Origin: Bacillus sp. V5-8f
GTDB taxonomy: Bacteria > Bacillota > Bacilli > Bacillales > DSM-1321
Direction: 5' to 3'
Length of the DNA stretch: 64,000 nucleotides
NCBI RefSeq assembly: GCF_002863565.1
Contig: NZ_PGUW01000011.1
Coordinates: 62,001 to 126,000, forward strand
In this document: positions 5,395-21,092 of the stretch, piece after piece
How the letters are laid out: each line of letters opens with the position of its first letter
How positions within the stretch are numbered: the stretch's first letter is position 1
Position numbers and translations under genes: made by a program
Notes under the pieces: model-generated
What the model saw: only the letters and a program-made list of their open reading frames with translations
Told to the model about the DNA's origin: nothing
Databases searched by the model: none

Positions 5395-5748
5395 TTAATC
5401 ATCTTCACGCTGTCTTGCTCTTGCTTCTCCGCCCTTGCGTCCAGCTTCTTCTCTGCTCATTTTTCCATCGCTGTCATCATCACGCTGTTCAGCTCGTGCG
5501 TTTCCGCCTTTTTCACCGATTTCTTGATAAAATTCTTTATCATGATTTTCAGAAGTCGCTTCGCCACCCTTCCGTCCAATCTCTTGATAGAATTCCTTGT
5601 CATGGTTTTCAGCCGTGGCTTCTCCGCCTTTGCGTCCGATTTCCTGATAAAATTCCCTGCCGTGATTTTCAGCTGTAGCTTCTCCGCCTTTGCGTCCTGC
5701 TTCTTCTACCGTCATTTTTCCATTCTTTTCTCTGTCGTTCTTAGCCAT
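5395..5748 (-). CDS. GsiB-like general stress protein with KGG repeats
   Basis: Very hydrophilic 117-residue protein built from five copies of a roughly 20-22 residue unit ending in GRKGGEA (R/E-KGG core at each repeat), the KGG or 'stress-induced bacterial acidophilic repeat' found in B. subtilis GsiB. Such proteins are LEA/hydrophilin-like and are induced by heat, salt, ethanol and starvation; the biochemical role is unsettled. Two adjacent ATGs exist (5751 and 5748); AAGGAGG at 5757-5763 is eight bases from 5748, so I use that one. The longer frame to 5799 would cross the promoter. A SigB-type promoter directly upstream fits this family. Confidence 0.88.
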   Translation of the reverse strand: MAKNDREKNGKMTVEEAGRKGGEATAENHGREFYQEIGRKGGEATAENHDKEFYQEIGRKGGEATSENHDKEFYQEIGEKGGNARAEQRDDDSDGKMSREEAGRKGGEARARQREDD

Positions 5749-5798
5749 CATACATTCCTCCTTGTTCGTTTTATGAAGAAAGTGTGTCTGATACTTCA

Positions 5799-5823
5799 AT
5801 TCCCCGATTACAGAATTCGAAAC
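5799..5823 (-). promoter_or_regulatory. SigB-type promoter of the stress protein
   Basis: On the minus strand GTTTCG, 13 bases, GGGAAT, close to the SigB consensus GTTTAA / GGGWAW, placed about 35 bases upstream of the ribosome binding site. Confidence 0.65.
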
Positions 5824-15319: not shown

Positions 15320-16780
15320 ATGACAAAAGAAATAGGATGGAAATTTGATAATAGTTATGCCCGCCTGCCCAAAACTTTTTATACAAACCAGTCTCCAGAT
15401 CCTGTAGAGTTTCCGAAGCTAGCCATACTCAATCAGTCGCTTGCGGTATCATTAGGACTTAATGTTGAGGCTTTGCAAGGTGAAGATGGCATAGCGATTT
15501 TTGCAGGCAACAAGGTTCCTGAAGGCGCTTCCCCACTTGCCCAGGCTTACGCGGGCCATCAGTTCGGTCATTTTACTATGTTGGGTGATGGCCGTGCAGT
15601 ATTACTGGGCGAACAGATTACCCCCCGGGGTGAACGGTTTGATATTCAGCTCAAGGGCCCCGGACGGACACCATATTCACGCGGGGGCGATGGCCGGGCG
15701 GCGCTTGGCCCAATGCTTCGTGAATACATCATAAGTGAAGCTATGCATGCCCTGGGCATTCCAACTACACGAAGCCTGGCCGTGGTGACTACCGGTGAGG
15801 CGGTCATCCGCGAAACCCACTTGCCAGGTGCCATCTTAACTCGTGTAGCTGCCAGCCATCTGCGTGTTGGCACTTTTCAGTACGCTGCTACATGGGGGTC
15901 ACCCGGGGAACTTAAGGCCTTGGCAGATTATGCGATAAAGCGCCAGTATCCGGAAATTGAGGGTGATAAAAATCCTTATCTTTCACTACTCAAGGAAGTA
16001 ATCAAGCGACAGGCAGCCCTGATATCAAAATGGCAGCTGGTTGGCTTTATCCATGGTGTGATGAATACCGATAACATGACGATAAGCGGAGAAACCATTG
16101 ACTATGGTCCTTGCGCCTTTATGAATGAATATGACCCGGCTACGGTATTCAGTTCTATTGACACGGGAGGACGGTACGCTTACGGCAACCAGCCGGGTAT
16201 TGGAGGATGGAATCTCGCCCGATTTGCGGAAAGCTTGTTGGAGCTTATTCATGAAGAACAGGAACAGGCCATAGAACTGGCCCAGGACGCGATTGCTGAA
16301 TATCCAGATCTTTATAAACAAAATTGGCTTTCCGGAATGAGAGCAAAACTGGGATTGTTCAATGAGGAAACACAAGATGAAGCCCTTATTAAGGACCTTC
16401 TGGATGTAATGAAGAAGTATGGGGCGGACTTTACTAATACCTTCCGGGCTTTGACCATTGGGAAAACAGAAGGTACTGACCTGTTCGGCAGCTCGGAATT
16501 TGCAAAATGGCATGATGTGTGGGTGGAAAGATTAGGAAGGCAAGAGGAAACAAAAGAATCCTCACAGGAATTAATGCGGAACAGCAATCCTGCTGTAATC
16601 CCAAGGAATCACAGGGTAGAAGCGGCACTCGAAGCTGCAGTGGAGCGCGGAGACTTCACCGTAATCGAAAAGCTTCTTGAAGTTCTTTCACGCCCATACG
16701 CCCACAATCCAGAACAAGAAGAATACACCACACTTCCTGAGCCATCAACCATTCCTTACCGTACTTTTTGCGGAACATAA
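15320..16780 (+). CDS. selO: SelO protein adenylyltransferase
   Basis: SelO/YdiU pseudokinase-fold enzyme that transfers AMP from ATP to protein Ser/Thr/Tyr side chains. Recognised by the N-terminal [44 protein letters not shown] (flipped nucleotide site), [11 protein letters not shown] and DYGPCAFM. 486 residues, full length. The C-terminus ends FCGT; Cys484 occupies the place of the selenocysteine of animal SelO and could form a regulatory disulfide. In E. coli SelO protects against oxidative stress by modifying glutaredoxin and other proteins. Stands alone with its own terminator. Confidence 0.96.
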
Positions 16781-16890
16781 TCCATAAATTTGGAATTGTG
16801 GGTCTATAGCCATGATCATTTCGTTTTTTATATAATTGTTCCTCAATCAAAAATAAACTGATTTGTGTAGTTGGTGAAGTATGTAGGAAA

Positions 16891-16935
16891 AGGCATCATT
16901 CCGGTGAAACTGGAATGATGCCTTTAAATTTTTTC
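16891..16935. terminator. Bidirectional terminator between selO and the RidA-repeat gene
   Basis: Twelve-base perfect stem AGGCATCATTCC / GGAATGATGCCT, nine-base loop, T-rich on the plus side and a shorter T run on the minus side. Confidence 0.85.
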
Positions 16936-16975: not shown

Positions 16976-18289
16976 TTATTTTTTATCAGGAGAATGGAAT
17001 GTTCCTTCTACTTCAACAATATCATCCTGATTTAAGCGATCCACTTCAACAATTGTGCGTGGTGGGTATGGTCCCTCACCCCAAAGCTCTTCTTGGATTT
17101 CATTCACTAATGGGCGGTATCTGAACATATCTGTAACATACACTACAAGGCGGGTAGCATCTTTAAGGCTTGCCCCTTCAGACTCAGCAATTAGCTTCAT
17201 GTTTAGGAACGCCTGGCGAATCCGGTCTTTTTCATCTTTGACTAAAGCATCCGTTGCAGGATCGATTCCACGCATACCTGCAACATAAACGGTATCCCCG
17301 GCAAGAGTCCCTAAACTCCATGTTCCAGTTGGCTTAATGGCACCTTCAGGAGAAAGTGTCTTTACGCCTAGCTTGCCCTTCAATGGGACATAGAATGTTC
17401 CTTCTACTTCAACAATGTCATCCTGGTTCAAACGATCCACTTCAATAATTGTTCGTGGCGGATAAGGACCTTCACCCCAAAGCTCTTCTTGAATTTGGTT
17501 CACCAACGGGCGGTATCTGAACATATCTGTGACATACACTACTAAGCGGGTTGCATCATTGAGGGATGCCCCTTCTGATTCCGCAATTAGCTTCATGTTT
17601 AGGAATGCCTGGCGAATGCGTTCTTTTTCGTCTTTGACTAATGCATTAGTTACAGGATCGATTCCGCGCATACCTGCTACAAAAACAGAATCCCCGGCAC
17701 GAGTTCCTAAACTCCATGTTCCAGTCGGCTTAATTGCGCCTTCAGGAGCAAGTGTTTTTACACCCGATTTCTTCTTCAGAGGAGCATAGAATGTCCCTTC
17801 TACTTCAACAATGTCATCCTGATTCAAGCGGTCCACCTCGACAATTGTACGCGGCGGATATGGCCCTTCACCCCATAGTTCTTCTTGGATTTCATTCACC
17901 AATGGACGGTATCTGAACATATCTGTGACATACACTACTAAGCGGGTTGCATCATTGAGGGATGCCCCTTCTGATTCCGCAATGAATTTCATGTTTAGGA
18001 ACGCCTGGCGAATCCGGTCTTTTTCATTTTTTACCAATGTATTGGTTGCAGGGTCGATTCCGCGCATACCTGCTACATGAACATAATCGCCCGCTCGAGT
18101 TCCTAGACTCCAGGTACCGGTCGGCTTGATTGCCCCATCCGGGGACAAGGTTTTAACACCATTTGGAGATAAATCGGTTTTTGTTTTAGCAAAAATGTCT
18201 TGTCCGAAACTAGCAAAAAACAAAATAAGTATAGCAATAATAGACAAAATTTGTCTGTATGGCTTTCCTGCCAAGTAATCCTTAAACAT
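16976..18289 (-). CDS. Exported protein of three tandem RidA (YjgF) domains
   Basis: 437 residues. Residues 1-34 form a signal peptide or anchor (basic start, then a hydrophobic stretch ILSIIAILILFFASF). Three near-identical 132-residue repeats follow (about 44-175, 176-307, 308-437), each a complete RidA/YjgF domain: AGMRGIDP, NMK.IAESEGASL, then PPRTI.EVDRLNQDDIVEVEG. The Arg in PPRT aligns with catalytic Arg105 of E. coli RidA and the Glu in VEVEG with Glu120. Cytosolic RidA hydrolyses reactive enamines/imines; an exported triple-domain form is unusual. RidA is a trimer, so one chain could fold as an intramolecular trimer (inference). Start: ATG at 18289, eight bases after AGGAG, rather than a GTG nine bases upstream. 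Confidence 0.9.
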   Translation of the reverse strand: MFKDYLAGKPYRQILSIIAILILFFASFGQDIFAKTKTDLSPNGVKTLSPDGAIKPTGTWSLGTRAGDYVHVAGMRGIDPATNTLVKNEKDRIRQAFLNMKFIAESEGASLNDATRLVVYVTDMFRYRPLVNEIQEELWGEGPYPPRTIVEVDRLNQDDIVEVEGTFYAPLKKKSGVKTLAPEGAIKPTGTWSLGTRAGDSVFVAGMRGIDPVTNALVKDEKERIRQAFLNMKLIAESEGASLNDATRLVVYVTDMFRYRPLVNQIQEELWGEGPYPPRTIIEVDRLNQDDIVEVEGTFYVPLKGKLGVKTLSPEGAIKPTGTWSLGTLAGDTVYVAGMRGIDPATDALVKDEKDRIRQAFLNMKLIAESEGASLKDATRLVVYVTDMFRYRPLVNEIQEELWGEGPYPPRTIVEVDRLNQDDIVEVEGTFHSPDKK

Positions 18290-18299
18290 TATTACCACT

Positions 18300-18778
18300 C
18301 CTAAAAAATTACTTTGTTATCAAATTTCACAATACATTAACCTGTTAATTGCTATCACTGAGATAAGATGATTTAAACAAAGCGTCAGTATTTATTCTAT
18401 GTTCAACCAGTTACCATCTAAGTTTTAGCAATTAATGCATCACCGCCCACAATTATCCTGAAATAATAGGACTAAATATAAAGAACTAGTTTAATATTTG
18501 TCAACTATAAATCTTTCAAAGAGTCAATAAAAACTATTTTTATTAAAAAAACACTATGAGACAGTGTGGTTTGGAACAAGTATCTAAACTTTTATTAAAA
18601 AAAGACGATAGGTATTTGGTCGGGGTAATTATCAATAGAATGAAATTGGTTAGTGATAATTCTTGTTAAATTAGGCAAAATATACTATACTTCAGCTGTG
18701 GGAATTTGTCGAATAAACTCGAATTTTTTCTTAATGTCGAATCTTACTATGTATATTTAAGGTTTGTAAAACAATTGA
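18300..18778. other. Spacer upstream of the RidA-repeat gene and riboswitch
   Basis: Roughly 480 AT-rich bases between divergent transcription units. Both promoters must be here. I see no gene and no convincing element I would place exactly. Confidence 0.5.
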
Positions 18779-19106: not shown

Positions 19107-21092
19107 ATGAAAACCAGAAAGAAACCAAGAGGGAAACTGAAGATGAGGATGAACATCAAGACTCGTTTGATCATCGCTTTTATGGCGATTTTGATAGTTC
19201 CAACTACCACGATCGGATGGTTTTCCTATCAAAAAGCGGCGAACCAAATAACAACTGAAATTGAGAAAAACGCTGTGAAAGACGTAGAATCTGTAAACAA
19301 TCAGATTAACGAACTTCTATCATCAAGCCTGGAGGACCTGGATTACTTAGCGAAAACGGTAAATGGGAAGATGGTTCAAGGGGAAACAAGTCCTGAGCTC
19401 AGAAAAATTCTTGATCCAGTCAAGGCAGTCCAGCCTGAATATGATCACGTTCAATTTGCAACGACAACCGGTGTATTATTAAATTCACCGCAGCAGCAAT
19501 TTGACGCAGGATTTGATGTCAGGGAACGTCCTTGGTACATAAAAGCAATCGAAAACAAAGGAACTGCACTTGTTAACAGCCCGATCATATCACAGGATGA
19601 AAAGGTGATCATTGTTCCGTCGAAATCCACAAATGATGGTTCAGGAGTTGTCAGCGTAGTTTTAAGTTTAAGTAATCTTACCGAGCGAGTAAACAAAATC
19701 AAAGTCGGAGATAAGGGATTTGTGTCTATTATGGATCAGGAAGGTAAATACCTTACTCATCCGAAGCTTGATCCTGGGACTGAAAATAAAGACGCTACCG
19801 TTTCTAAGTTTTACGCTAAAGATTCCGGAATAATCGATTATGAAGCTAAGGAAGAAAGAATGGTTTTTGTCACAAATAAAATGACAGGGTGGAAAATTGT
19901 CGGCACCATCGAAATGTCAGAGGTTGCGAGTGCGACAAATGGTATTCTTTATACCACTATTGCTGTTATTGTAGTGTCTATTTTAATCGGCATCTTGCTT
20001 GTTCTGTGGAATGTGCGTTCTGTTACCTCACCTCTTAATCAATTAAAAGAAGGCATGAAAGAAATAGCATCGGGTAATTTAGCATATAGAGCAGATTCTA
20101 AGCGAGATGATGAGATTGGCCATATATTCAAGCATTTAAATGAAATGAGTGAAAGTCTAAAACATCTAATAGGTAAAATTTCCGCAAATTCGGAGTTAAT
20201 ATCATCATCGGCCGTTCAATTAACAGCGAGTTCTGAACAAACGAGCCAGGCAGCGGAACATATTTCATATACAATCCAAGAAGTTGCTTCGGGAACTGAA
20301 AGACAGAGTGAAAGTGTTGAACAAGCAATTAAAATCGTTAGTGAAATGGACCGGGGTGTTCAGCAAATAACCGCCAATGCTAAAAACGTATCGGTAAATG
20401 CAAGCAACACTTCCGAGAAAGCAAATATCGGAAACCAGGCGATCCAAAATTCCATACAACAAATGAATGCAATCCAAACAACTGTTAATAATCTTGGAGA
20501 AGAAATTAAAGGGTTGGGAGATCAATCCAAACAAATTGGAGATATCATTCAAACGATAACCAACATTGCAGGACAGACCAATCTGCTTGCTTTAAATGCT
20601 GCAATTGAGGCTGCAAGGGCAGGAGAGTCGGGCAAAGGGTTTGCCGTTGTAGCGGATGAGGTTCGCAAATTAGCAGAACAATCAGCGGCTGCTGCTGAAC
20701 AAATCACACATTTGATATCAAAAAATAAGCAGCAAACCGATGTGGCTGTTAAAACAATGGAAGCTACTACACAAGAAGTACTTGCTGGTATTGAATTGGT
20801 AAATACAGCTGGCCAATCATTTAACGAAATCAGGAAAGCGACAGATGATGTTACAAAACAGACGGAAGAAGTGGCTGCGGCAATTCAACAAATTTCCGAA
20901 AGTGCAAAAATGATTGTAAGTTCCATTGATACAATTGCGGAAGTGGCGCAGAATGCGGCAGCAGGAACTCAAAATGTATCAGCATCGACACAGGAGCAAT
21001 TAGCTTCTTTAGAAGAAGTATCTGCATCTGCTTCTTCATTATCGGGAATGGCAGAAGAATTACAAATGCTGGTTCGCAGTTTTAAAATATAA
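19107..21092 (+). CDS. Transmembrane methyl-accepting chemotaxis receptor (riboswitch 1)
   Basis: 661-residue receptor of the B. subtilis McpA/TlpA type. Short basic N-terminus, membrane segment about 19-39, extracytoplasmic double-Cache (dCache) sensor about 42-280 ([17 protein letters not shown] is the typical Cache signature, often amino-acid or organic-acid binding), second membrane segment about 283-306, HAMP ([19 protein letters not shown]), and MCP signalling domain with tip [20 protein letters not shown]. The C-terminus RSFKI is conserved in these receptors. GGAGG lies 11 bases before the ATG. Expression should respond to c-di-GMP through the upstream riboswitch. Ligand not predictable. 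Confidence 0.95.

Follow-up and report, generated by a model that had tools for sequence, protein, structure and literature searches.

A gene for a predicted exported protein of three Rid domains stands divergently beside a chemoreceptor gene in the window (the whole stretch of 64,000 nucleotides analysed here), and the linkage of the two genes is well supported. The three-Rid gene is no artefact and has long existed, its product is predicted to leave the cell, and a functional link between the Rid protein and the receptor appears likely. We propose, at about even chances, that the gene pair is a chemosensory module in which the exported Rid trimer works as an enzyme, or binds a ligand, on behalf of a chemoreceptor dedicated to it. 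The module is supported because the divergent adjacency is kept, the other neighbours differ between genera, and the two genes co-occur in genomes.

Gene organization and predicted export

The sequence-only reading had described a signal-peptide-like N-terminus followed by three 132-residue Rid repeats, and this description was confirmed at the coordinates of Table 1, in an open reading frame of 437 residues on the minus strand. The ATG at 18289 is the likely start, because a GTG at 18298 shares bases with the AGGAG ribosome-binding site of the gene. A Pfam search found PF01042 in three stretches of the protein, with 172 bits and an E-value of 5.9e-51 at a cut-off of 27.3, which places it in the Rid/YjgF/UK114 superfamily; with three tandem fused Rid domains it also has the organization that defines 3x-RidA. 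The motifs PPRT and VEVEG, with their Arg and Glu, are present in every repeat, as had been claimed. The same genome has three other PF01042 proteins, all single-domain, and the window gene is the only tandem Rid found there. Elsewhere in the window (5395-5799, minus strand), a small protein is built of repeated GRKGGEA units.

Table 1. Features of the Rid gene and its divergent partner in the window
Feature	Position	Strand	Details
Hairpin in the gap from the Rid gene to its convergent neighbour (15320-16780)	16889..16925	.	Terminator-like on the + strand only (scan)
Gene of the predicted exported 3x-Rid protein	16976..18289	-	437 aa; start ATG 18289, stop 16976; ORF and Pfam
Rid domain 3, aa 308-434	16988..17368	-	Pfam, conserved motifs
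Rid domain 2, aa 176-302	17384..17764	-	Pfam, motifs; best match of 3lme
Rid domain 1, aa 44-170	17780..18160	-	Pfam, conserved motifs
Predicted signal peptide, aa 1-34	18188..18289	-	Cleavage near IFA|KT; rule-based; model helix 9-28
Sigma-A-type promoter of the Rid gene	18475..18504	-	TTGACA-18-TATATT, 11/12, ~215 bases ahead of the ATG
Divergent partner, methyl-accepting chemotaxis protein, 661 aa	19107..21092	+	dCache_1, HAMP, MCPsignal (Pfam)
Sensor domain (dCache_1) of the partner receptor, aa 47-266	19245..19904	+	Portion of the receptor that accompanies the Rid gene

By a simple rule, the N-terminus is net positively charged and has a hydrophobic stretch that averages 3.4 on the Kyte-Doolittle scale over 12 residues, with an IFA|K end resembling a signal-peptidase site, and the AlphaFold2 model places a helix of low confidence at residues 9-28. 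The same rule detected a hydrophobic N-terminal stretch in 31 of 37 Rid proteins including that of the window, and in all ten from Bacillota. The six proteins lacking this stretch are from Pseudomonadota and branch apart from the clade that unites the others (94/86). The Rid protein of L037 carries LLAC, which we read as a lipobox-like word. Export of the window protein, as proposed earlier, is accordingly a prediction, shared by the leader-bearing relatives.

Promoters were compared at ten loci including the window, with L030 and L127 outside the comparison. A sigma-A-type promoter scoring 11/12 lies on the Rid strand in seven of these loci, the window included, and the equally good sites of six relatives stand 74-134 bases ahead of the start. 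On the receptor strand, a sigma-D motif reaches 11/12 in three of the ten. A sigma-D promoter for the Rid gene itself was rejected, as no score on the Rid strand exceeds 10/12 at any of the ten loci. The promoter types of the Rid and receptor genes differ.

Predicted fold, conserved residues and subfamily

The best AlphaFold2 model of the window protein has a pTM of 0.84, and 287 of its residues, distributed over the three domains, can be superimposed on single-chain chorismatases at 3.0 Å. The prediction agrees with the earlier suggestion that the chain may fold as a built-in intramolecular trimer. Among 56 Rid domains of the family, the catalytic Arg and the Glu are each conserved in 55, and one domain of P. 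pabuli has Cys in place of the Arg. Trp occupies the position of RidA Tyr17 in all 56 domains, and 42 of the 127 columns are invariant; these counts omit three domains that are not 127 residues long (L030 domain 1, L059 and L062). Substitution of Tyr17 by Ala in RidA is reported to have little effect (Niehaus et al. 2015, PMC4433059).

Comparison against the RidA subfamily model TIGR00004 (cut-off 106.25) gave 57.5 and 74.6 for two single-domain relatives and 102.6 for a two-domain relative, all under the cut-off. The window protein, scored whole, reaches 164.7, over the cut-off only by summing its three domains. Judged from the single-domain relatives, the domains of this family, taken singly, would fall outside the RidA subfamily. 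In the window's own genus, L010 (1495-2766) carries a canonical three-domain RidA that has no leader, is 26% identical to the window protein and scores 305 bits to TIGR00004; its triplication is probably independent.

Divergence of the repeats

At the DNA level, the window repeats are spaced by 396 bases and show 85-86% identity to the reference copy across 300 bases. They are 82-87% identical across 124 codons, and the best amino-acid identity between them is 91%. The dS values between the three repeats are 0.57, 0.67 and 1.17, with dN/dS of 0.04-0.08, which indicate that the repeats have long diverged and that all three are under purifying selection. The term near-identical, as used in the sequence-only reading, is a little strong. 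That reading also pointed to recent duplication or gene conversion; the former is rejected by the dS values and finds no support in the presence of three-repeat relatives in several genera, whereas within-species homogenisation is visible in the Rid domain tree, yet only in part. The repeat dS, together with the multi-repeat relatives in other genera, also rules out an assembly collapse or expansion, the error that the same reading had warned of.

The Rid domain tree comprises 59 domains and one outgroup, the root resting on the very long outgroup branch. The repeats of the window and of Domibacillus form one clade (97/88), and those of L032, of L030 and of P. oleatilyticus each cluster as a set, while the first repeat is separate in Saccharibacillus and in L028/L029. 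Such a grouping points to homogenisation that is partial rather than to fresh copying. In L037, a Kiloniellales MAG, the three repeats cluster together (95/94) away from Bacillota, which suggests a triplication independent of the Bacillota one. L032 (recorded as Neobacillus mesonae MER 107; genome G154) is listed in the genus of a Paenibacillus, and its Rid domains cluster with those of the window and Domibacillus against this listing, indicating mislabelling, transfer or both. The tree and the column counts exclude L051 (internal stop), L064 (contig starting inside the gene), L065 (frameshift) and L058 (run of N), the last contributing its first domain alone to the identity correlations below.

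Relatives and their distribution

Relatives were collected by scanning GTDB genomes once for six peptide patterns, an approach that picks up close relatives only. The scan gave 39 Rid loci, 11 in Bacillota and 28 in others, and the single-, two- and three-domain relatives that the sequence-only reading had proposed to look for were all found. Three domains are present in nine of the 11 Bacillota loci, counting L058, which has room for three across its run of N; of the remaining ones, P. oleatilyticus has two domains and L064 is cut. Outside Bacillota, fused Rid occurs at two of 28 loci (L036 and L037). By these domain counts, within this sample, fusion is the rule among the predicted exported Bacillota proteins, and bacteria that have an outer membrane seldom show it.

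Close Rid genes are sparse even among near relatives. The window genome is the only one with a close match among the 150 genomes around it, the best other match being 37% identical over one domain; four of 75 genomes in the Paenibacillus genus of L028 carry a close Rid gene, and of 61 genomes around Domibacillus, Domibacillus alone does. The distribution of the family is patchy. Mobile elements as carriers were rejected: a scan of viral contigs with the single pattern DRLNQDD returned 13 stretches and no relatives, and one of 72,556 plasmid records matched, from Methylobacterium at 53.7% identity.

Several loci show features of their own. At L036 (3974-5772), an adjacent gene pair codes for two and one exported Rid domains, three in total. 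The Rid protein of L030 is fused to a Cu_amine_oxidN1 domain (Pfam), and in Saccharibacillus (L031:5542-6159) a small leader-bearing Cu_amine_oxidN1 protein is encoded directly downstream of the Rid gene (Pfam). In Pseudomonadota, the single Rid gene of L040, L047, L057, L060 and L063 has purL, purQ or a glutaredoxin-like gene in its vicinity (named by eye). The three-Rid gene of genome G431 (L127:8471-9790) has no ATG, GTG or TTG ahead of its leader, and an ATT start after AGGAGGGG is possible.

Linkage to a chemoreceptor gene

Adjacency was assessed at 12 Bacillota loci, namely the window, L027, L028, L029, L030, L031, L032, L033, L034, L035, L058 and L127, with L064 outside the test as its contig begins within the Rid gene. 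A chemoreceptor gene is the divergent neighbour of the Rid gene in 11 of the 12. The exception is L030, where two genes lie between them, named by eye as one for a leader-bearing L-asparaginase-like protein (1200-2429) and one for a lipoprotein. The Rid-chemoreceptor pair is present again in genome G167. This pairing, which the sequence-only reading missed, offers the best hint at what the Rid protein does. In the flanks of about 4 kb, the Bacillota loci share other genes only inside Saccharibacillus or between L035 and L064. Inspecting the ORF lists of seven Pseudomonadota loci by eye, we noticed no sensor gene next to the Rid gene.

Searches with the sensor alone (residues 31-300 of the window chemoreceptor) revealed that the two genes also co-occur. 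In the 75 genomes of the L028 genus, a close sensor (51-55% identity, 293-313 bits) is found in four, the same four that carry the Rid gene, with the next-best sensor at 37% and 189 bits (Fisher p of 8e-7, uncorrected for kinship). The window genome is likewise the only one of the 150 genomes around it that has a close sensor, the next being 38% identical. A class-wide search of 398 genomes, with at most six candidates scored per genome and a threshold of 1e-58, was passed by six genomes: G000, G748, G439, G723 and G431 at 47% identity or more, and G447 at 36%. The Rid gene adjoins the sensor in four of the five at 47% or more (G439 via its identity with G176). G000, G439 and G748 were already known, so that the new cases are G431, which agrees with the pairing, and G723, which counts against strict pairing of Rid and sensor. 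In G723 (L126:3437-7794; sensor 48%), there is no Rid gene in the 14 kb around the sensor; its receptor adjoins genes resembling CheW and CheA (by eye). No Rid gene lies near the sensor of G447 either.

The window sensor is 46-72% identical to the 11 linked sensors, compared to 28-31% for three paralogues in its own genome. Over 66 pairs, uncorrected for kinship, Rid identities track those of the sensor (r of 0.74) more than those of the signalling domain (r of 0.42). The window sensor is more conserved than the signalling domain against ten of its 11 partners; as a general rule this was rejected, holding in only 34 of the 66 linked-receptor pairs.

The sensor pocket

The sensor model has a pLDDT of 86 (17 sequences), and its closest structures are amino-acid dCache receptors. 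In such receptors R126 binds the carboxyl group of the ligand and D173 contacts amines, as described in PMC10104139. Alignment to PctA showed R126, W128 and Y129 in every one of the 12 Rid-linked sensors, along with Val in place of D173, Phe in place of Y121, and Ile (in 11) or Phe (in one) in place of Y144. The dCache_1AA pattern of Y121, R126, W128, Y129, Y144 and D173 is thus broken in the linked sensors. Among eight unlinked sensors, the D173 place holds Asp in four and Glu, Ser, Asn and Ala once each, the Ala being that of the G723 sensor. Loss of the Asp is therefore not unique to the Rid-linked sensors, as four of the eight unlinked ones also lack it; Val at this place, in contrast, occurs only in the linked ones of the 12 and eight compared. 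An amino-acid or amine ligand is disfavoured by the change of D173 to Val, a reading tempered by the D173 exceptions among the unlinked sensors. On the simplest reading of these residues, the ligand would be a carboxylate lacking an amino group.

A parallel in Cyanobacteria

In four of 12 cyanobacterial loci, the Rid gene adjoins a dCache_1-type histidine kinase gene (Pfam was run on two of the four). Across the 117 genomes around that of L044, where the Rid protein is of the single-domain form predicted to be exported, a close kinase sensor occurs in all five Rid-bearing genomes versus two of the 112 others, at a threshold of at least 56% identity that was chosen afterwards (the next value is 50%). 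Overall, the kinase sensor is present in seven of 11 Rid-bearing cyanobacterial genomes, representing 11 of the 12 loci, and absent from four, which form one clade of the Rid tree. The cyanobacterial kinase sensor has no RxWY motif by eye; therefore its ligand may differ.

Proposed function and alternatives

Rid proteins are cytosolic damage-control enzymes, and they release 2-oxo acids. In the module that we propose, the three Rid domains on one chain would fold into a Rid trimer, which outside the membrane would act on, or bind, an amino-acid-derived imine or enamine, and the receptor would read the resulting carboxylate, e.g. a 2-oxo acid. As the cell lacks a periplasm, fusion of the subunits would keep an extracellular trimer from dissociating. 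A more specific version, which we offer tentatively as one possibility, is that the Rid protein converts an imine or enamine that is not itself sensed into a 2-oxo acid, and that the co-inherited dCache receptor, which has Val at the amine-contacting Asp but retains the carboxylate-binding Arg, steers the cell by it. Several observations weigh against the module: the G723 sensor with no Rid gene nearby, the unlinked sensors that likewise lack Asp at the D173 place, the cyanobacterial genomes without the kinase sensor and the missing RxWY motif of that sensor, the 34 of 66 receptor pairs, the Pseudomonadota loci in which no sensor neighbour was noticed, the differing promoter types, and the Trp in place of Tyr17.

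Periplasmic binding proteins dock on some chemoreceptors, and a non-catalytic Rid trimer might likewise bind a small molecule in the pockets at its interfaces, and dock on the dCache domain as a co-receptor. The same linkage and co-occurrence data would fit such a role, the family-wide Trp in place of Tyr17 and the invariant columns suggest a specialised pocket, and one P. pabuli domain has given up the Arg. However, near-universal retention of Arg and Glu is what an enzyme would show, and the sensor retains R126, W128 and Y129 of a pocket of its own, so we regard a co-receptor as doubtful. The retained Rid fold and Arg, along with the Pseudomonadota relatives in which no sensor neighbour was noticed by eye, would also suit an extracellular imine/enamine hydrolase for damage control that has no sensory role, the receptor being a passenger. 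This is unlikely, as the adjacency persists across genera while other neighbours change, and sensor and Rid co-occur.

Chlorinated RidA has reportedly been described as a chaperone. A role outside the cell as ribonuclease or chaperone, which the Pfam name L-PSP and the reports on chlorinated RidA (PMC6435465) might suggest, is highly improbable: the family name alone favours it, whereas nothing that would fit was noticed in the neighbourhood and the chemoreceptor linkage would be left unexplained. It is scarcely credible that the feature is an artefact of repeat assembly or of a falsely called signal peptide. The signal peptide is called by a simple rule and nothing speaks for an assembly error, but the repeats differ by dS of 0.57-1.17, three-domain relatives with leaders occur in several genera, and one relative is fused to Cu_amine_oxidN1.

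If the proposed module is correct, an exported Rid lineage inherited with a chemoreceptor would give Rid proteins a role in sensing, tie reactive enamine and imine chemistry to behaviour, and provide a candidate ligand class for an orphan receptor type. The fused domains of Bacillota, set against the mostly single domains of bacteria with a periplasm, would offer a clean test of why subunits fuse.

Comparison with known systems

Domain fusion is already known in Rid proteins, whereas an exported Rid lineage with a dedicated chemoreceptor is new as far as we searched: among the matches listed, none joins exported or tandem Rid, or Rid and chemoreceptors, in a search whose scope left most subscription journals outside. 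Loss of RidA is described as affecting motility through 2-aminoacrylate, inside the cell (PMC5636819).

Like the window protein, 3x-RidA (e.g. EF_0115) has three Rid domains per chain, presumed to be covalently linked units of the trimer (Niehaus et al. 2015, PMC4433059). It is assigned there to the RidA subfamily, whereas the single domains of the window family score below the RidA model. The window family further differs in having Trp for Tyr17, mostly a leader and, in Bacillota, a chemoreceptor neighbour; no mention of export of 3x-RidA was noticed in PMC4433059, and 'extracellular', 'periplasm' and 'chemo-' are absent from its main text. A Rid protein from culture supernatant, Rhp-PSP (PMC4632080), was rejected as a relative, its two printed peptides being unlike this family by eye.

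The closest solved relative is RPA2473 of Rhodopseudomonas palustris (PDB 3lme), which matches with 150.7 bits across one domain and superimposes on the window model at 1.0 Å with 51% identity, both having GTW and GPYPPRT. Unlike the three-domain window protein, it is a single domain known from its structure only, and its construct may have no leader, because the numbering of the aligned chain begins at 28. The chorismatases (PDB 5a3k and 4bps) are 15-18% identical to the window protein and resemble it by fold comparison; unlike them, the window protein has near-identical repeats. Compared to the dCache_1 amino-acid chemoreceptors PctA, McpB and Mlp24, the linked sensors have Val at D173 and Ile or Phe at Tyr144, and, unlike these receptors, they stand paired with the gene of a predicted exported Rid protein.
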